Part shown: in pieces, positions 8,678 through 19,280 of the stretch
Layout: each line of letters starts with the position of its first letter
How positions within the stretch are numbered: the first letter of the stretch is position 1
Assembly (NCBI GenBank): GCA_016841245.1
Contig: JAENZN010000025.1
Span: 1 to 57,530, forward strand
Reading direction: 5' to 3'
Source: Syntrophomonas sp.
GTDB taxonomy: Bacteria; Bacillota; Syntrophomonadia; Syntrophomonadales; Syntrophomonadaceae
DNA: 57,530 nt
Translations under genes and position numbers: made by a program
The notes under the pieces: model-generated
The model's database searches: none
What the model was told of the DNA's origin: nothing
The model's input: the letters and a program-made list of their open reading frames with translations, nothing else

Positions 8678-9247
<570 letters not shown>

Positions 9248-9262
9248 CAAAGACCCTTTAAC

Positions 9263-9340
9263 TCAGTCCCGTGAGGCTGGCAAGGGGGAGCAGCGTAAGT
9301 AATACCTTCCTTGCCGCCTGTGGGCAGGGAAGGTTTTTTT
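9263..9340 (+). promoter_or_regulatory. PyrR-type attenuator 2 between pyrR and pyrB
   Basis: CAGTCCCGTGAGGCTGGCAA repeats the PyrR recognition core of the first leader. It is followed by ACCTTCCTTGCC / GGCAGGGAAGGT (9304-9334, with wobble pairs) and seven T residues. Controls read-through into pyrB. Confidence 0.85.
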
Positions 9341-9424
9341 ATGCCCTGCCCTTTAGGTTCAGACAGTTGGAGTGGGCAGCGTGGTGGAGATTCTGCCGCG
9401 AAAAAAGACAAAGGAGGCTTGGCG

Positions 9425-10363
9425 GTGAAATTCGACCGGAAAGATCTACTGGGGATAAAGGATCTCAGCAGAGAGGAAATCGAACTCATTTTGGACACAG
9501 CTATACCGATGAAGGATGTCATTAAAAGGGATATTAAGAAGGTCCCTACCTTGAGAGGTAAGGCCATGGTTACCGTTTTTTATGAGAACAGTACCCGCAC
9601 CCGGACTTCTTTCGAAATTGCCGGGAAATATCTGAGCGCTGATACGGTAAACCTGGCAGTATCTACCAGCAGTGTACAGAAGGGAGAAAGTCTGCGTGAC
9701 ACCATTAAGACTATCGAAGTGATGGGTTTTGATCTTATGGTGATGAGGCATGCTATGAGTGGCACTGCCCATTACGCTGCACGTAATACCAGTATGAGCG
9801 TGATCAATGCCGGTGATGGGGAGCATGAACATCCTACCCAGGCATTGTTGGATATGTATAGTATAAGAGAGAGCAAAGGAACTCTGGAGGGATTGAAAGT
9901 AGCTATCGTGGGTGATATTCTCCACAGCCGGGTAGCTCGTTCCAATATATACGGCTTGACTAAATTTGGCTGTGAAGTACGGGTGGTTGGACCTTCCACC
10001 CTGATGCCTCCGGAAATTGAAAAGATGGGAGTTAAAGCCTATTATAATCTGGATAAGGCTTTAGAAGATGTTGATGTAATCAATGTACTCAGAATTCAGA
10101 GAGAAAGACAGGAGGCTGGTTTGTTCCCGTCTCTGGACGAATACTCGAATTTATATATGGTCGGCAACCGGCATTTAAAGTGTGCCAAAGAGGACGTACT
10201 GGTGCTGCATCCCGGTCCGATGAACCGGGGGGTGGAAATATCCAGCGAGGTTGCTGATGGGTCTCATTCGGTGATTAATGAACAGGTTACTAATGGAGTT
10301 GCCGTGAGGATGGCACTGCTGTTCTTGATGATGGGGGGATCAAAAGATGAAATTGTTGCTTAA
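9425..10363 (+). CDS. pyrB: Aspartate carbamoyltransferase catalytic subunit
   Basis: Condenses carbamoyl phosphate with aspartate to carbamoyl aspartate, the committed step of pyrimidine synthesis. 312 residues from the GTG at 9425, chosen because AAGGAGG lies 7 nt upstream. The longer open frame back to 9311 runs through the attenuator terminator and is not translated. Carbamoyl-phosphate loop STRTRTSFE at 56-64; HPTQALLD and HPGPMNRG are present. No regulatory chain (pyrI) is visible, as in Bacillus-type enzymes. Overlaps pyrC by 17 nt. Confidence 0.95.
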   Translation: MKFDRKDLLGIKDLSREEIELILDTAIPMKDVIKRDIKKVPTLRGKAMVTVFYENSTRTRTSFEIAGKYLSADTVNLAVSTSSVQKGESLRDTIKTIEVMGFDLMVMRHAMSGTAHYAARNTSMSVINAGDGEHEHPTQALLDMYSIRESKGTLEGLKVAIVGDILHSRVARSNIYGLTKFGCEVRVVGPSTLMPPEIEKMGVKAYYNLDKALEDVDVINVLRIQRERQEAGLFPSLDEYSNLYMVGNRHLKCAKEDVLVLHPGPMNRGVEISSEVADGSHSVINEQVTNGVAVRMALLFLMMGGSKDEIVA

Positions 10364-11633
10364 AGGCGGAAGGGTTATTGACCCTGCGAATGAAGTGGAT
10401 GAGATCATGGATGTGCTGGTTGAGGATGGTACCATCATAAAGATTGATATCAATATTGACCCGCAGGACTGTGAAGTAATTGATGCCTCAGGTAAGATAG
10501 TCTGTCCAGGATTCATAGATATGCATGTTCATTTAAGAGAACCGGGTTTTGAATACAAAGAAGACATAGCTACCGGAACCCGCGCTGCAGCAGCAGGAGG
10601 ATTTACTTCCGTTTGCTGTATGCCCAATACCGAGCCGGTGGTAGACAGTGCTCCGGTAGTGCGTTTTATCCGGGAGCAGGCAGAAAAAGCCGGAGTAGTG
10701 AATGTATTTCCCATAGGAGCTATAAGTAAGAAGCAGGAAGGAAAAGAGCTGAGTGAAGTGGCCGATTTGTTGGCCGCCGGCTGTGTAGCTATATCTGATG
10801 ACGGCAAGCCGGTTAAAAAAGCCAGTGTTATGCGCAATGCTCTGGAATATACTAAAATGTTCGGTATCCCGGTACTTTCTCATTGTGAAGACCTGGATCT
10901 TTCACATGACGGACAAATGCACGAGGGATATTATTCTACCATCTATGGTTTAAAAGGCATACCTGATGCTGCTGAAGAACTAATGGCGGCACGGGATATA
11001 CGACTGGCTGAATTAACCGGGGGCCATGTTCATCTTTGCCATGTTTCTACCCGGGGCTCTATAGAACTGGTTAGAATCGCGAGGCAGAAGGGCGTTAATG
11101 TTAGCTGTGAAGTTACTCCCCACCACCTGACTCTGAGTGATGAGATTCTGGGCGATTATGATGCTGATGCCAAGGTTAATCCGCCGCTTCGATCTATTGA
11201 ACACATACAGGCTTTGATTGAAGCGCTGCAGGATGGGACCATTGACTGCATTGCCACCGATCATGCCCCCCATCACCGGGAAGCCAAGGATTGTGAATTT
11301 CAACTGGCAGCCATGGGTATTTCAGGGTTGGAAACAGCTGTGGCAGTTATTATGGATAGGCTGGTAGGCCCAGGACTGCTGGATATATATGACATGGTAA
11401 GATTGTTCACCTGCGGGCCGGCTGAGATACTGGGTCTCGACCGCGGCACGCTGGAAATAGGATCGACAGCGGACATTACTGTAATCGATCCTGAAACAGT
11501 GCGGAGGGTGGACCCGGAGAAATTCTATTCCAAAGGCAAAAATACGCCATTTAAAGGCATGGATTTAAAAGGCTGGCCGGTTATTACTATAGTAAATGGA
11601 AATATTGTGGCCCGGGAGGGCAGCATAGTTTAA
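10347..11633 (+). CDS. pyrC: Dihydroorotase, type I
   Basis: Zinc amidohydrolase that cyclises carbamoyl aspartate to dihydroorotate. 428 residues, standard for the type I class found beside pyrB. Metal ligands His60 and His62 lie in DMHVHLREPG; further motifs are HCED, CHVSTR and the catalytic-aspartate segment ATDHAPHH. The ATG is inside the last codons of pyrB (17-nt overlap) with GGGGG upstream, so the two are probably translated together and may form a complex. Confidence 0.95.
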   Translation: MKLLLKGGRVIDPANEVDEIMDVLVEDGTIIKIDINIDPQDCEVIDASGKIVCPGFIDMHVHLREPGFEYKEDIATGTRAAAAGGFTSVCCMPNTEPVVDSAPVVRFIREQAEKAGVVNVFPIGAISKKQEGKELSEVADLLAAGCVAISDDGKPVKKASVMRNALEYTKMFGIPVLSHCEDLDLSHDGQMHEGYYSTIYGLKGIPDAAEELMAARDIRLAELTGGHVHLCHVSTRGSIELVRIARQKGVNVSCEVTPHHLTLSDEILGDYDADAKVNPPLRSIEHIQALIEALQDGTIDCIATDHAPHHREAKDCEFQLAAMGISGLETAVAVIMDRLVGPGLLDIYDMVRLFTCGPAEILGLDRGTLEIGSTADITVIDPETVRRVDPEKFYSKGKNTPFKGMDLKGWPVITIVNGNIVAREGSIV

Positions 11634-11648
11634 GGAGTGATAAAAATA

Positions 11649-12713
11649 ATGAAAGGCTACCTGGTGCTGGAAAACGGCCGGGTTTTTCCTGGTAGACTGC
11701 TGAACGACTGCCGTATGGCAGGGGGAGAAGTGGTATTCAGTACTGCTATGATCAGTTACCAGGATATCATCACTGACCCATCCTATTATGGGCAGATTGT
11801 GGTTATGACCTACCCCCTGGTAGGAAATGTCGGATTCAATGAAAAAAGCTTTGCTTCACGTTCAGCCATGGTGAAAGGTCTGATTTTAAGAGAGGCTACT
11901 GATTTCCCCAGTCATTACGAGATGGAGACCGATTTGATCACCTTCTTGAACAAGAGTGAAATTCCGGTGCTGACCGAGGTGGATACCCGGGCGCTCACCC
12001 GGGAATTGAGAAATAATGGCACAATGGGGGGCATTATTACTGATAATTTGAGCAGTATGGATAGGCTTATACAAAAATCTAAAAAAGAAGCACGGGATCT
12101 TTCCGGTGATGTGGTAAGATTTGTCACCCGCAAGAATATCATGAGTTTTGGCCAGGGAGAAAAACGCATTGTTATGATTGATCTAGGGACTAAAAGGGGA
12201 GTAGTTGATTCTCTTACCGGACGGGGCTGTCAGCTTATTGTTGTGCCAGCCAGTACTACTGCTTCGGAGATAATGGAACTCAAACCGGATGGGGTATTCC
12301 TGTCGGATGGTCCGGGAGACCCGCAGGCTTTAAAGTATGTTGTAGATGCTTGCCGGACTCTGCTAGGTAAAGTGCCGATATTTGCTATTGGCCTGGGGCA
12401 CCAGATCCTGGCCCTGTCTATGGGAGCTAAAACCAGCCGGCTTCGGTATGGACATCGGGGGACCAATCATCCAGTCAAGGATTTGAAGAATGGCCGGGTA
12501 TATATAACTACTCAAAATCACGGTTTTGCCATAGATGAAGAATCACTGGCAGATAATGGCTGGGAGGTTACTCTGCGCAGCCTCAACGATGACAGCGTTG
12601 AAGGAATCAGGCATCTGGAGTATCCAGCTTTCTCAGTGCAGTTTGACCCGGAAGGTTTTTCTGGATATAGTGAAACCGGATTTTTCTTGGATGATTTTGT
12701 AAAAATGCTCTAA
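11649..12713 (+). CDS. carA: Carbamoyl-phosphate synthase small subunit, glutaminase-dead
   Basis: Small chain of carbamoyl-phosphate synthase, 354 residues, in its normal operon place before carB. The N-terminal domain (1-~150) and class I amidotransferase fold (~172-354) are complete, with DGPGDP, GHRGTNHPV and QNHGFAID. The glutaminase triad is not: the usual GICLGHQ reads AIGLGHQ, replacing the nucleophile Cys with Gly248 (codon GGC at 12390). The usual QYHPE reads QFDPE, replacing the catalytic His with Asp333 (codon GAC at 12645). The Glu of the triad is retained (Glu335). Normally this subunit hydrolyses glutamine and channels ammonia to CarB. Here it should be structural, with CarB using free ammonia. 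ATG 11649 is preferred over GTG 11637, which overlaps the TAAGGAG ribosome site. No frameshift or stop. Confidence 0.93.
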   Translation: MKGYLVLENGRVFPGRLLNDCRMAGGEVVFSTAMISYQDIITDPSYYGQIVVMTYPLVGNVGFNEKSFASRSAMVKGLILREATDFPSHYEMETDLITFLNKSEIPVLTEVDTRALTRELRNNGTMGGIITDNLSSMDRLIQKSKKEARDLSGDVVRFVTRKNIMSFGQGEKRIVMIDLGTKRGVVDSLTGRGCQLIVVPASTTASEIMELKPDGVFLSDGPGDPQALKYVVDACRTLLGKVPIFAIGLGHQILALSMGAKTSRLRYGHRGTNHPVKDLKNGRVYITTQNHGFAIDEESLADNGWEVTLRSLNDDSVEGIRHLEYPAFSVQFDPEGFSGYSETGFFLDDFVKML

Positions 12714-12748: not shown

Positions 12749-15700
12749 ATGCCCCTGAACAAGGATTTAAAAAAAGTACTGGTAATCGGCTCAGGTCCTA
12801 TAATTATCGGACAGGCAGCGGAGTTTGATTATGCAGGAACTCAGGCCTGCAGAGCGATAAAAGAAGAAGGAATAAGGGTAATTCTTCTGAATAGTAATCC
12901 CGCCACTATCATGACTGATGTTGATATTGCCGACGCGGTATATATGGAGCCGATAACCATCGACAGCGTGGTTAAGATTATTGATAAAGAAAAACCAGAT
13001 GGGATTATTGCTAATCTGGGTGGACAGATAGGACTCAATATGGCACTGGCACTGGACAAAGCCGGGATATTGGAAGAAAAGGGGGTACCAGTATTAGGTA
13101 TGCCTCTGGATGCTATCTATCGTGCTGAAGATCGTGAGATGTTCAAGGATACTATGCAGGAAATGAATGAACCTATACCTGAAAGTGCCATTGTGCATTC
13201 AGTACAAGAAGCGATAGATTTTGCCAATCAAATCGGATATCCGCTCATTGTACGCCCTGCATACACTCTGGGCGGAACAGGCGGTGGAAACTGTACCGAT
13301 GAAGAAGAACTGCATAATATCGTTAACCGGGGACTTAAGAGCAGCCCCATCCACCAGGCTCTAATCGAAAGGAGCGTGGCGGGCTATAAGGAGATTGAGT
13401 TTGAAGTAATGCGGGATAGTAACGATAACTGCATTACCATATGCTCCATGGAAAACCTGGACCCGGTTGGCATTCACACCGGGGACAGCATAGTAGCTGC
13501 ACCGGCTCAGACCTTAACTGATGAAGAATACCAGATGTTAAGATCTGCTTCTATTAAAATAATCCGGGTCCTTAAAATTGCGGGAGGATGCAATATACAA
13601 TTCGCCCTGGATCCCTTTAGCAAAAAGTATTATGTTATTGAGGTCAATCCCCGGGTCAGCCGCTCCAGTGCTCTGGCATCAAAAGCCACCGGCTATCCCA
13701 TCGCCCGGGTAACCACGAAAATAGCTATTGGATATACTCTGGATGAAATACCTAATACGGTGACCGGTACTACCACTGCTTGTTTTGAACCGGCTATTGA
13801 TTATGTAGTGTTAAAGGTACCGCGCTGGCCTTTTGATAAATTCGTTTTAGGGGATCGTAAACTGGGAACTCAAATGAAGGCTACTGGAGAAGTAATGGCT
13901 ATTGACCGCAGTTTTGAGGCCGCCTTCTTAAAATCCATCCGATCTCTGGAAATTGGTCTGAATGGATTGCTTTTGCCTGAACTGCAGGAAGCGAGCGATG
14001 AGGGATTAAGAACCCGTTTGCAGTATGCAGATGATGAGAGGATATTTATTATAGCGGAGGCCTTTACCCGCGGCTTTACCATAGACGAAATATGGGATAT
14101 CACTCAGATTGATAAATACTTTTTGAAGAAACTAAAAAATATTATTGATTTTGCATTAACTTTAAAGGATAAAACCCTGGATGGAGAAACCCTTACAGCT
14201 GCCAAGAAAATGGGCTTTTCAGATAGCGAGATAGCTGATCTCAAAGACATCCGGGAAGAAGATGTACGCAGATTGCGGCGGGAGAAAGGCATAATTCCAA
14301 CCTATAAACAGGTGGATACCTGTGCGGCCGAGTTTGATGCCCAGACCCCTTACTTTTATTCCTGTTATGAGCAGGAGAATGAAGCTACCCATGATCCTAA
14401 CGTACGCAAGGTGCTGGTTATCGGCTCAGGTCCGATCCGCATAGGACAGGGGGTTGAGTTTGATTACTGCTCGGTGCATGCCGTATGGGCTTTGCGAGAC
14501 GCAGGGATAAAAGCCATAATAGTAAACAACAATCCGGAAACGGTTAGTACGGATTTTGATACTTCCGATCGTTTGTATTTCGAACCGCTGGTGTTCGAAG
14601 ATGTTATGAATATACTGGAGGAGGAAAACCCGGAAGGAGTCATTGTGCAGTTTGGAGGACAGACTGCTATTAACCTGGCCGGCCCCCTGTGCCGGGCGGG
14701 GATTAAGATCCTGGGTACTTCCAACGAAAGTATTGACCGGGCAGAAGACCGGGAGCGGTTTGATGCCATGGTGGCCGATTTAGGGATACCCCGTCCCCCG
14801 GGCAAAAGCGTATATTCCGTGGAAGATGCGGTTAAGGCGGCAGAAATTATTGGCTATCCGGTACTGGTAAGGCCTTCGTACGTTTTAGGCGGCAGAGCTA
14901 TGGAGATTGTAGATAACATTGATGAGTTGAAACAGTATATGCAAACTGCGGCCCGGGTTAACAAAGAGCATCCGGTACTGGTTGACAAATATTTGATGGG
15001 TAAAGAAATAGAAGTAGATGCGGTGTGTGATGGGCAGGAAGTTTTGATACCTGGCATCATGCAGCATATTGAACGGGCCGGGGTACATTCCGGGGACAGC
15101 ACCGCGGTATTTCCAGCCCATGATATATGCCAGGAGATCCGGGATAAAGTTGTGGATTACACCACCCGCCTGGCTCTGGAACTTGATGTGCGCGGTTTGA
15201 TTAACATCCAGTTTGTGGAACATGAAAACGAACTCTATGTGCTGGAAGTAAACCCTCGTTCCAGCCGGACCATACCTTTCATAAGCAAGACTACCGGTAT
15301 ACCGATGGTGAAACTGGCCACCGAGATAATGTTCGGCAAAACCCTGAGAGATATGGGGTATCAGGGCGGTTTATATCCGGAAATGGGATTCTATGCCGTT
15401 AAGGTTCCGGTATTTTCATTCAATAAACTGCATCAGGTGGATATCAATCTGGGACCGGAGATGAAATCAACCGGTGAAGTAATGGGAATTGACTACTCAC
15501 TGCAGAGTGCGATATATAAAGGTCTGCTCGCGGCTGGAGTGGAAATACCGGAGCAGGGCAATATAGTAGCAACTATTGCAGAACGAGATAAGCCGGAAGC
15601 GATACCACTCCTGGTCGAATTTGCCAGGATGGGCTTCAAGATAACTGCAACTGAGGGTACAGCTAAGGCTCTGCATGAACAGGGCATCGAAGTAGAAACG

Positions 15701-15973
15701 GTTAAAAAGATAAAAGAGGGGTCACCCAATATCGTTGACCTTATACGCGAAGGCCGGGTGGATTTCATTGTTAATACCCTTACCCATGGGAAAAAGCCAT
15801 ACAGCGATGGTTTCCAGATACGTCGGGCGGCAGTTGAACTTAATGTACCCTGTCTCACCTCCCTGGATACTCTTAAAGTAGTAATGCAGGGATTTCAGAC
15901 CGGGAGCAGGATTGGCAGTGAAAATGGGCAGATAAGGCCCTTGCAGGAATATCTAGCCGGAATGATAAATTGA
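12749..15973 (+). CDS. carB: Carbamoyl-phosphate synthase large subunit
   Basis: Makes carbamoyl phosphate from bicarbonate, ammonia and two ATP. 1074 residues, essentially the E. coli length. Duplicated ATP-grasp halves are clear: each begins with VLVIGSGP (residues ~10 and ~553), and the carboxy-phosphate half has [12 protein letters not shown]. The oligomerisation segment lies near 400-550, and a C-terminal MGS-like allosteric domain (~935-1074) contains the NTLTHG stretch. ATG follows TGGAGGG. Since the companion CarA lacks glutaminase residues, this subunit probably works with ammonium directly. Confidence 0.96.
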
Positions 15974-16049: not shown

Positions 16050-16832
16050 ATGCCTTTATCCGCAAAAGGATTAGTTATCAGTAATCAGCAGGTGGGCAGA
16101 GACCTGTGGGAAATGGAATTTTTAGCTCCGGGTATGGCCGCAGAATCTAAACCCGGGCAGTTTGTGCACATCAGGGTAGGAGATGACCATGATCCTCTGC
16201 TGCGGCGCCCCTTGAGCCTTTATGATGTAGATCAAAATCTGGGAAGCATAACCCTGTTATATAAAATAGCAGGTAGAGGAACGAACCTCTTGAGTAAATT
16301 TGAAGCAGATCAGCTGCTCGATGTTATGGGGCCTCTGGGCAGGGGATTTACCCTGGTTGAGGGCCGGAGAGTCATTCTGGTAGGGGGAGGGGTCGGTATT
16401 GCGCCGCTGCTTTTCCTGGCCCGGGAGCTGCAAGTCCGGCAGAATGAAGTTACTGTCTTGTATGGTGGCAGCAGCAGTGATGAAATGTGTTCTCTGGACA
16501 GGTTTGTCAACCTGGGAGCAGGTATTATGGCTGCGACCCTGGACGGAAGTGCTGGTTTTCGAGGGCTGGTTACCGATATGATGAAAAAAAGTATTGATCC
16601 ACTATCTATCGATTATTTTTATACCTGTGGGCCGGAGCCCATGATGGCCGCAGTGGCTGAATATGCAGTACAGTATGGCCTGGCAGGAGAAGTATCTCTG
16701 GAAGAATATATGGCCTGCGGGGTAGGAGCCTGTCTGGGATGTGCCAGAAAATTAAAAGCAAGCGATAATGCCTATGTAAAAATATGCAAAGATGGACCGG
16801 TATTTCCCATGGATGCAGTTGAACTACGATGA
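16050..16832 (+). CDS. pyrK: Dihydroorotate dehydrogenase B electron-transfer subunit
   Basis: FAD and [2Fe-2S] subunit that passes electrons from PyrD to NAD+. 260 residues: FAD-binding barrel (~5-100, RRPLSLYD), NAD-binding domain (~105-215, VGGGVGIAPLLFLA, TCGPEPMM) and the C-terminal cluster motif Cys223-x4-Cys228-x2-Cys231-x14-Cys246. ATG follows ATGGAGG. The NAD-linked class 1B enzyme suits an anaerobe. Confidence 0.94.
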   Translation: MPLSAKGLVISNQQVGRDLWEMEFLAPGMAAESKPGQFVHIRVGDDHDPLLRRPLSLYDVDQNLGSITLLYKIAGRGTNLLSKFEADQLLDVMGPLGRGFTLVEGRRVILVGGGVGIAPLLFLARELQVRQNEVTVLYGGSSSDEMCSLDRFVNLGAGIMAATLDGSAGFRGLVTDMMKKSIDPLSIDYFYTCGPEPMMAAVAEYAVQYGLAGEVSLEEYMACGVGACLGCARKLKASDNAYVKICKDGPVFPMDAVELR

Positions 16833-16984: not shown

Positions 16985-17920
16985 TTGACAAAGGAAGCAA
17001 AGCAGGTGCTGGTCGATATGTCCGTAAACCTGGGCGGAATGAAGATGCAAAACCCGATTGCGGTAGCCTCGGGCACTTTCGGATACGGGCGGGAATATCA
17101 GGACTTTGTTGATATAAGTAGAATCGGGGCAGTTATAGTAAAAGGGACTACCCTGGAAGAGCGTTATGGGAATCTAGCTCCCAGAATATATGAAACACCG
17201 GCTGGGATGCTTAACGCCATTGGCCTTGAGAATCCCGGTATCGATGTGTTTTTGAACGATTATCTGCCTTCTTTAAGCCAGGATGGGGTAAATGTGGTAG
17301 CAAATATTGCAGGGAATACGGTGGATGAGTATGCCCTGCTAAGCAGAAAAATCGATAAACATCCGGGTATTGCCGGAATAGAATTGAATATTTCCTGCCC
17401 TAATGTAAAACAAGGCGGCATGCAGTTCGGAACTGACCCGGAACTGGTGAAGCAGGTGGTGCAGGCCGTAAAATCAGAAACCAAGCTGCCCGTAATACCC
17501 AAGCTGTCTCCCAATGTAACTGATATCGTAAGTATTGCGAAGGCCGCCCGAGATGGCGGAGCCGATGCTCTATCCATGATCAATACCTTGATGGGAATGG
17601 CAGTTGACATTGAAAGAAAAAGGCCGGTTTTAGGAAACATATTTGGCGGTCTGTCCGGACCGGCTATAAAACCGGTTGCTCTGCGCATGATTTACCAGGT
17701 TTATAAAGAAGTCGATCTTCCCATACTGGGTGGAGGGGGAATTGTCAATACCCGAGATGCGCTGGAATTTATCCTGGTAGGAGCCAGTGCAGTATCTATT
17801 GGTACCGGTAATTTTGTTAATCCCGCTATCGCAGAGGAAATTGCTCAGGGATTGGAGAACTATGTAATTGAGCAAGGGCTAAAGGGAATAAATGAGCTGG
17901 TAGGTGCAGCGGTATTATAG
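16985..17920 (+). CDS. pyrD: Dihydroorotate dehydrogenase B catalytic subunit
   Basis: FMN enzyme oxidising dihydroorotate to orotate, partner of PyrK. 311 residues with catalytic Cys138 (NISCPNV), characteristic of class 1 enzymes, and FMN-phosphate segments [11 protein letters not shown] and [10 protein letters not shown]. The TTG start at 16985 has GGAGGTTG upstream. Separated from pyrK by 152 bp holding a potential RNA structure, unlike the tight spacing usual for this pair. Confidence 0.95.
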
Positions 17921-17942
17921 ATGCTGTCTCAGTTTATAACAA

Positions 17943-17965
17943 CTGCCAGGCGTCGTCGCCGGCAG
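17943..17965 (+). other. Strong hairpin directly before the pyrF ribosome site
   Basis: CTGCC-A-GGCG, loop TCGT, CGCC-GGCAG: nine GC-rich pairs with one bulged A, ending 2 nt before AAGGAGG. No T tract, so it is probably a stability or processing element, or a modulator of pyrF translation, rather than a terminator. Confidence 0.5.
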
Positions 17966-17981
17966 ATAAGGAGGTATTTGG

Positions 17982-18701
17982 ATGCAGGCCCGGGATAGAA
18001 TAGTTTTGGCATTAGATGTAGATACCAGAGAAAAGGCGATTTCACTGGTCAGGGAACTGGCTGAATATGTAGGGGTATTCAAAGTGGGTATGCAGCTATA
18101 CAATAGTGTTGGACCTGACATAGTAAAAGAAATTAACCAACTGGGTGGGAAGGTATTTGTGGATTTAAAATTCCATGATATACCCAATACCGTTGCCTCC
18201 GCAGGTCGGGTGATGGCCAGGCTGGGATGCCATATGTTCAATGTGCATGCAGCCGGAGGGCGAGAAATGATGCAGTCTCTGGTCAAAGAACTCAAGCAGG
18301 AATCTGAACTGCTGGGTCAAGCGGAGCCCATTACTCTGGCCGTTACTGTGTTAACCAGCATTAGTCAGGAACAGCTGGCACAGGATATGTTTATCCAGGA
18401 TATGCAGATTAAAGATCTGGTAGTAAGATGGGCCAATATGGCACAGGAATGTGGAATAAATGGGGTGGTCTGCTCACCGCAGGAGATAATCGCTATTCGA
18501 CAAGCCTGTGGACCGGATTTCAAAATAGTTACCCCGGGAATAAGGCCGGCCTGGTCGGAAGCCAATGACCAGAAACGCATCACTACTCCCAGACAGGCAC
18601 TGGATATGGGGGCTGATTATATGGTGATTGGCCGTCCCATAGTAAAGGCAGCTGATCCGGCTGCAGCAGCCCAGAGAATTATCGATGAATTGGAGGAATA
18701 A
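17982..18701 (+). CDS. pyrF: Orotidine 5'-phosphate decarboxylase
   Basis: Final step to UMP: decarboxylates OMP. 239 residues, TIM barrel. The catalytic array DLKFHDIPNT contains Asp61, Lys63 and Asp66; the phosphate-binding end reads TPGIRP and IGRPI. ATG with AAGGAGG upstream. Followed by pyrE after 3 nt. Confidence 0.96.
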   Translation: MQARDRIVLALDVDTREKAISLVRELAEYVGVFKVGMQLYNSVGPDIVKEINQLGGKVFVDLKFHDIPNTVASAGRVMARLGCHMFNVHAAGGREMMQSLVKELKQESELLGQAEPITLAVTVLTSISQEQLAQDMFIQDMQIKDLVVRWANMAQECGINGVVCSPQEIIAIRQACGPDFKIVTPGIRPAWSEANDQKRITTPRQALDMGADYMVIGRPIVKAADPAAAAQRIIDELEE

Positions 18702-18704
18702 AGC

Positions 18705-19280
18705 ATGTTGAGCAGGGAAGAAGCAGTAAAAATATTCAGTGATTCCGGGGCCTTGATGGAAGGACATTTTTTGTTGACTTCCGGTCGGCACAGTAATCAA
18801 TATATGCAGTGTGCTCAGGTGCTGCAGTACCCGGCCTATACCGAGCAGCTGGCTAAACATATTGCTGACAAATTTGAAAATGATGGGATCGAACTGGTAG
18901 TAGGACCGGCCATGGGCGGGATCATAGTATCTTATGAAGTAGCGCGTCAGCTGGGTGTGCCCGGGATATTTGCAGAAAGAAAAGATGGACAGATGGAAAT
19001 CAGGCGGGGTTTTACTATAAATCGAGGGCAGAAAGTGCTGGTTGTAGAAGACGTGGTTACTACTGGCGGTTCAGTAAAAGAAGTTATTGATGCGGTTAAA
19101 GAAGCCGGCGGAGAGGTGGCCGGGGTAGCGGTGCTGGTAGACCGGAGCAATGGCAGCGTGACCTTTGGAGTTAAACAGGAAGCAGTTCTTACCATGGATA
19201 TCCAGTCCTGGGAGCAAGCAGAATGTCCGCTGTGCCAGGAAGGCCAAACCGAAGCCTACAAACCAGGCAGCCGAGGCTAA
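18705..19280 (+). CDS. pyrE: Orotate phosphoribosyltransferase
   Basis: Attaches the PRPP ribosyl-phosphate to orotate to give OMP. 191 residues. PRPP loop VLVVEDVVTTGGS, flexible loop with FAERKDGQ and substrate segment GRHSNQY. Belongs to the thermophile/Clostridia-type PyrE with a Cys-rich tail (CPLCQEG). Three nt after pyrF with AATTGGAGGAATAAAGC before the ATG. Confidence 0.95.
   Translation: MLSREEAVKIFSDSGALMEGHFLLTSGRHSNQYMQCAQVLQYPAYTEQLAKHIADKFENDGIELVVGPAMGGIIVSYEVARQLGVPGIFAERKDGQMEIRRGFTINRGQKVLVVEDVVTTGGSVKEVIDAVKEAGGEVAGVAVLVDRSNGSVTFGVKQEAVLTMDIQSWEQAECPLCQEGQTEAYKPGSRG

Follow-up and report, generated by a model that had tools for sequence, protein, structure and literature searches.

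A pyrimidine-operon CarA without its glutaminase active site, and a proposed ammonia-dependent carbamoyl phosphate synthase in Syntrophomonadaceae

How a carbamoyl phosphate synthase (CPS) obtains nitrogen when its small subunit lacks the residues that hydrolyze glutamine is the question raised by a pyrimidine operon of Syntrophomonas sp., a member of the Syntrophomonadaceae, anaerobic bacteria that degrade fatty acids. The operon is complete and lies on the forward strand of the window, by which we mean the whole stretch of 57,530 nucleotides that was analyzed, in the order pyrR-pyrB-pyrC-carA-carB-pyrK-pyrD-pyrF-pyrE. The first gene, pyrR (8693..9247; GTG start as listed), was identified from its sequence and from conserved synteny. 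Between pyrR and pyrB sits a PyrR-binding RNA element (9251..9341; Rfam RF00515, 59.5 bits), from which we conclude that the operon is under pyrimidine control. There follow pyrB for aspartate carbamoyltransferase (9428..10363; NF002032 and TIGR00670), pyrC for dihydroorotase (10347..11633; TIGR00857, above cut-off), carA (11649..12713), carB for an intact large, or synthetase, subunit of 1074 amino acids (12749..15973; TIGR01369, 1568 bits) and pyrK for the electron-transfer subunit of dihydroorotate dehydrogenase (16050..16832; by model search). The end of the operon, pyrD, pyrF and pyrE (16985..19280), was assigned from the open reading frame list and from synteny in the family. The same gene order is conserved in the family, and the test that carA be encoded beside carB was met.

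The carA gene starts with ATG, runs for 354 codons without a frameshift and encodes a genuine member of the CarA family. The whole protein matches TIGR01368 with 410.8 bits against a cut-off of 307.35, and it holds the Pfam domains CPSase_sm_chain and GATase. A preliminary description of this DNA had noted that Gly replaces the nucleophile Cys in AIGLGHQ and that Asp replaces the catalytic His in QFDPE, followed by GFSGY where other CarAs read ASPGP, in an intact frame beside an intact large subunit. All of this is confirmed: Gly248 is encoded by GGC at 12390..12392 (C269 of E. coli), Asp333 by GAC at 12645..12647 in the motif VQFDPE (H353 of E. coli), and both CarB and the remainder of the operon are intact. 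The test for a Cys-His-Glu triad was thus not met, the residues being Gly248, Asp333 and Glu335. Two further changes had been missed, namely, Asp220 (codon at 12306..12308, motif LSDGPGDP) for the Asn of NGPGDP (N240 of E. coli) and Tyr340 (12666..12668, from the alignment) for the Pro of SPGP (P360 of E. coli, which adjoins G359 of the ammonia tunnel). Moreover, SYQD stands for GYQE at codons 36 to 39 (11754..11765), and Ser36 and Asp39 are two more family-specific changes, near the glutamine-contact residue Ser45. Cys-269 and His-353 of E. coli are essential for glutamine hydrolysis (PMC6245113). With the Cys, the His and the Asn of NGPGDP all gone, the protein, hereafter dead CarA, is predicted from its sequence to be no longer able to hydrolyze glutamine by the known mechanism.

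The altered residues are a property of the family. In a motif alignment of 27 dead CarAs of the family with 105 other CarAs, ten columns separated the two sets. Gly248, Asp220 and Tyr340 were present in 27/27 dead CarAs, whereas Cys, Asn and Pro, respectively, were present in 105/105 others; Asp333 was present in 26/27 (Ala once, in L066) versus His in 105/105. Weaker separation was seen at Gly336, Ser36, Asp39, Asn19, Val61 and Thr288. So regular a pattern of Gly248, Asp220 and Asp333 against Cys, Asn and His excludes chance or sequencing error. The positions that contact glutamine in E. coli CPS are kept in dead CarAs: Ser45, Gly221, Gly223, Leu249 (26/27), Gln252, Asn290, Gly292 (25/27) and Phe/Tyr293, equivalent to S47, G241, G243, L270, Q273, N311, G313 and F314 of E. 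coli. Because these contacts are retained, binding of glutamine or some other ligand in the pocket, perhaps as a signal, remains possible. An AlphaFold model of dead CarA was good for the GATase half only (mean pLDDT of 66.5, and below 50 for residues 20 to 105 and 336 to 341), and no pocket geometry was drawn from it for that reason.

How old the loss is, and whether the gene is decaying, can be judged from relatives. CarA loci were retrieved from the genome itself and from 60 relatives by TIGR01368 search, and their motifs were read. The dead signature was found in 35 of 54 Syntrophomonadaceae genomes, in about 20 genera, which rules out a strain-specific change; close relatives keeping both Cys and His at this position, the finding that would have refuted the preliminary description, were not what we saw. 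Dead CarAs formed a single clade with support of 100, nested in an order-level CarA clade (support of 100) whose other members are intact and include the pyr-operon CarA of another family of this order (L020/L098). The simplest reading is one loss at the base of the Syntrophomonadaceae. Pairwise dN/dS of dead carA within a genus was 0.04 to 0.115, comparable to 0.05 to 0.10 for intact CarA where dS could be estimated, and neighboring operon genes were similar. Dead CarA is therefore under strong purifying selection and not in decay. Sequencing error and pseudogene formation are ruled out by the conservation together with the dN/dS. Mean column identity was 76% for dead CarAs across the family and 60% for the intact set, but the intact sequences were drawn from further families of the order as well, and the two sets thus differ in taxonomic breadth.

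Loss of the triad is not confined to this clade. A search across 84,980 species genomes listed 80 CarAs, the best-matching relatives only, of which five were from Syntrophomonadaceae and had Gly/Asp and 75 had Cys/His. CarAs without an intact triad were nonetheless found outside the family (L073, L129/L247, L076, L077, L079, L019, L138/L248 and L142/L249), and these branch apart from the dead clade in the tree. Triad loss is therefore rare but repeated. Two of these proteins, from two other families but sisters in the tree, lack the Cys and keep the His (L073 7907-8980 and L247 5561-6706; GVGLGHQ and GIGLGHQ), and both L073 and L129/L247 sit in arginine biosynthesis clusters, judged from neighboring sequences. 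Two genomes have both of their CarAs damaged at the glutaminase site, G051 (L076 and L077) and G057 (L079 and L019). L019 keeps the Cys and has Tyr for His, and L079 reads GIGTGNL, close to the GISTGNL of animal CPS I. When DNA of the phylum was scanned for the pattern G-[IV]-G-L-G-H-Q, 50 of 398 genomes gave matches. Thirty matches were fetched and 22 were not, some of the latter being CarA loci already known. Most of those fetched were an unrelated protein of about 440 amino acids or non-CarA frames, few further CarAs were confirmed, and a wide distribution of dead CarA in the phylum was rejected on that ground. The unrelated protein, of about 430 to 475 amino acids with GVGLGHQ or GIGLGHQ, occurred at L122-L128, L130, L143, L144 and L149.

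Whether the cell still has a glutamine-using CPS differs between genomes. A second carA, for which the preliminary description had advised a search, is present in the genome of this Syntrophomonas sp. and is intact (G000:C15:50174-51223; GICLGHQ and VQFHPEASPGP), so that any claim of ammonia dependence is confined to the enzyme of the pyr operon and does not extend to the whole cell. A general loss of glutamine use is ruled out too, as the Cys is still present in PabA/TrpG and GuaA of this genome. The intact carA lies in a carA-PII-amt-PII-amt cluster without carB (L042 4296-9260), which is an ammonium-scavenging cluster. The test for an intact triad with PII/Amt linkage was thus met by the second CarA, and the same linkage recurs in relatives: carA-PII-amt is found in most of those that keep intact CarA, and carB lies between intact carA and PII-amt in a few (L069, L089, L090, L232 and L235). 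Eight loci with intact CarA were searched with Rfam, and no regulatory RNA was seen at the intact carA; group II intron RNA matches occur near the clusters (L042 14960-15253 and L094 966-2937). Seven genomes (G004, G005, G006, G012, G015, G028 and G034) have dead and intact CarA but a single full CarB, and therefore either the small subunits share CarB or one of them is idle.

The genome also encodes a second, divergent CarB without an adjoining CarA (L043 6240-9461; G000:C18:103329-106457), which might pair with the intact CarA. Its relatives elsewhere in the order are 81 to 94% identical. Four genomes (G020, G037, G039 and G045) have the divergent CarB and wholly lack CarA, and a CarA-less CPS may therefore exist.

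Dead CarA is the only CarA in other members of the family. No intact CarA was present in 18 of the 35 genomes with dead CarA, 11 of which are at least 90% complete (G007, G010, G016, G022, G025, G026, G027, G031, G176, G441 and G442) and two of which, G007 and G025, are single contigs. In the eight of these 11 genomes that were checked, the pyr operon has an intact CarB, there is no second full CarB, and ornithine carbamoyltransferase is encoded. Both users of carbamoyl phosphate in those eight therefore depend on the enzyme with dead CarA. In dead-only cells, carbamoyl phosphate must arise without glutamine hydrolysis by CarA unless pyrimidines and arginine are both imported, and ammonia use is close to unavoidable in the 11 near-complete genomes because dead CarA is their only CarA. 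Moreover, the ammonium transporter (PF00909) goes with intact CarA: of the 32 family genomes that are at least 90% complete, 19 have both, 13 have neither and none is discordant (Fisher p about 3e-9, which ignores kinship); over all 54 family genomes the counts were 25/1/2/26. Five genera hold both states, and intact CarA and Amt agree every time. The genes are usually linked in one cluster, so gain or loss as a block explains part of the co-occurrence, and its value as support is reduced by that linkage and by the shared ancestry of the genomes.

We consider ammonia-dependent synthesis of carbamoyl phosphate the best reading, with the reservation that no activity was measured. Specifically, we give a probability of roughly 0.8, without activity data, to the claim that CarAB of the pyr operon uses ammonia and not glutamine, that dead CarA has a structural or regulatory role and that intact CarA serves when ammonium is scarce. 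The preliminary description had proposed an ammonia-dependent CPS with CarA as a structural subunit, for which the 11 near-complete dead-only genomes are support, and had thought of ammonium-rich habitats, an idea strengthened by the absence of Amt transporters from dead-only genomes. Dead CarA would be retained on intact CarB in this structural or regulatory capacity, and CarB, by inference from CPS chemistry, would make carbamoyl phosphate from bicarbonate, two ATP and ammonia that the complex takes from solution. The change of Pro to Tyr at the tunnel wall probably shuts the old path of ammonia from glutamine to CarB, and ammonia may enter along a different path, which has also been suggested for animal CPS I. 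E. coli mutants altered at C269 or at G359, P360 and H361 of the tunnel reportedly behave in a manner consistent with this. With plentiful ammonium the CPS would run on ammonia; with scarce ammonium, intact CarA might replace dead CarA on the same CarB, an exchange that has not been shown. A glutamine-using small subunit would then be kept only by species equipped for ammonium scarcity.

What E. coli CPS can do with ammonia both helps and limits the proposal. When its tunnel is blocked or perforated, the enzyme retains normal activity with ammonia supplied from outside, which perhaps takes an alternative path (PMC4655335), but E. coli CPS uses ammonia only at very high, nonphysiological concentrations (PMC6245113). 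A better affinity for ammonia must therefore be assumed for the Syntrophomonadaceae enzyme. Changes in CarB to match dead CarA were sought, and none were obvious beyond six family-specific substitutions, all mild and none striking. CarA, or else the ammonium-rich habitats, is thus the likelier source of the assumed improvement.

Also counting against ammonia use is that the pocket keeps every residue that contacts glutamine, whereas an enzyme indifferent to glutamine would not be expected to do so. Perhaps dead CarA is a sensor that binds glutamine, ammonium or another amide and either switches the ammonia-dependent activity of CarB or blocks docking of intact CarA. Conserved contacts beside a dead triad and the higher identity of dead CarAs, given the unequal breadth of the two sets, would fit such a role, for which there is no direct evidence. 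We think a sensor possible but unlikely, and it would be compatible with ammonia use rather than opposed to it. The same contacts could instead indicate a rebuilt glutaminase, in which the carboxylate pair Asp220 and Asp333, with Glu335, hydrolyzes glutamine without Cys and leaves the enzyme glutamine dependent. Two new acids are indeed fixed in the pocket, but position 333 is Ala in one member of the family (L066), the Tyr at the tunnel wall argues against channelling, and the separate intact CarA of the species with ammonium transporters would be superfluous. Moreover, no class I amidotransferase is known to act without its Cys, and we consider a rebuilt glutaminase improbable.

Two further explanations would supply active glutaminase from elsewhere. 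Dead CarA might be a nonfunctional relic, with CarB served by an intact CarA encoded at another locus, and four pyr loci of the order do keep CarB without CarA (L101, L110, L114 and L115, in G009, G038, G040 and G033, respectively), with an intact CarA elsewhere in each genome. Strong purifying selection and an invariant altered motif are not what a relic should have, and the 11 near-complete genomes without intact CarA largely refute the idea, which we find scarcely credible. Alternatively, another, unidentified glutaminase might dock on CarB in place of intact CarA and deliver ammonia. The genome does keep intact class I amidotransferases, PabA/TrpG with GVCLGHQ and GuaA with GICYGMQ, but these belong to their own pathways, and neither the operon nor synteny suggests a substitute. 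We regard such a partner as very doubtful.

Ammonia-dependent synthesis thus remains our preferred reading, and it may be extended. We speculate that exchange of small subunits on one CarB switches the nitrogen source of CPS, between a PyrR-controlled dead CarA whose pocket (Asp220, Asp333, Glu335 and Tyr340) was rebuilt as an ammonium-sensing or -admitting element and an intact CarA linked to PII/Amt. This extension is tentative, and we would not rely on it at present. CPS, CarA and the use of ammonia by animal CPS I are already known, and animals use free ammonia in CPS for urea. A literature search limited to open-licence papers found no ammonia-dependent bacterial CPS with an inactive CarA, and a dead CarA that is fixed and under selection throughout a family, alongside an intact CarA with links to nitrogen supply, is new as far as we found in such papers. 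Surveys call bacterial CPS always glutamine dependent since CarA is present; a survey of amidotransferases in 600 genomes found carAB always with the glutaminase component, counting its presence and not the integrity of the active site (PMC3376133). Glutamine synthetase was for a long time regarded as the sole ATP-dependent amidotransferase to use ammonia in vivo (PMC3376133). The annotation "glutamine-hydrolyzing," when taken from a family model, can mislead throughout a whole clade. If our reading is true, dead CarA parallels animal CPS I in bacteria, offers naturally occurring sequences with which to study the entry of ammonia into CPS and ties an enzyme of nucleotide biosynthesis to ammonium availability in methanogenic consortia.

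Four known systems bear comparison. The glutamine-dependent CarAB of E. coli (CPS II) shares the subunits, the fold and the operon logic, with TIGR01368 and TIGR01369 both passed and E. coli CarA structures as the best fold matches of dead CarA, but the equivalents of Cys269, His353, Asn240 and Pro360 are all replaced. The laboratory mutants C269S, G359F and C248D of E. coli CarA (PDB 1c30, 1m6v and 1t36) are altered at the same or neighboring sites, and variants with a blocked tunnel lose glutamine use and keep ammonia use (PMC4655335 and titles cited in PMC6245113). Unlike those mutations, the changes in dead CarA arose in nature, occur together and have become fixed in a whole family of bacteria. 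The single-domain NAD synthetase is an amidotransferase for which use of ammonia in vivo has been shown, and its lineages divide into those with a glutamine form and those with an ammonia form (PMC3376133), but in that enzyme the glutaminase is wholly absent. Finally, animal CPS I (CPS1) also retains a glutaminase-like domain structurally after loss of the catalytic Cys, which is Ser in CPS1 (PMC4655335). The criterion of a CPS I type, a missing catalytic Cys with an intact synthetase moiety, is met by CarA and CarB, and ammonia is the nitrogen source of both, by inference for the Syntrophomonadaceae enzyme. The fusion test was not met, as animal CPS I is a single fused chain whereas carA and carB are separate genes. 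Unlike animal CPS I, the Syntrophomonadaceae enzyme has no known dependence on N-acetylglutamate, in the absence of any assay, and serves pyrimidine synthesis under PyrR control. Its CarA, moreover, has lost both the Cys and the His while keeping the glutamine contacts, and it arose independently, within one bacterial order.
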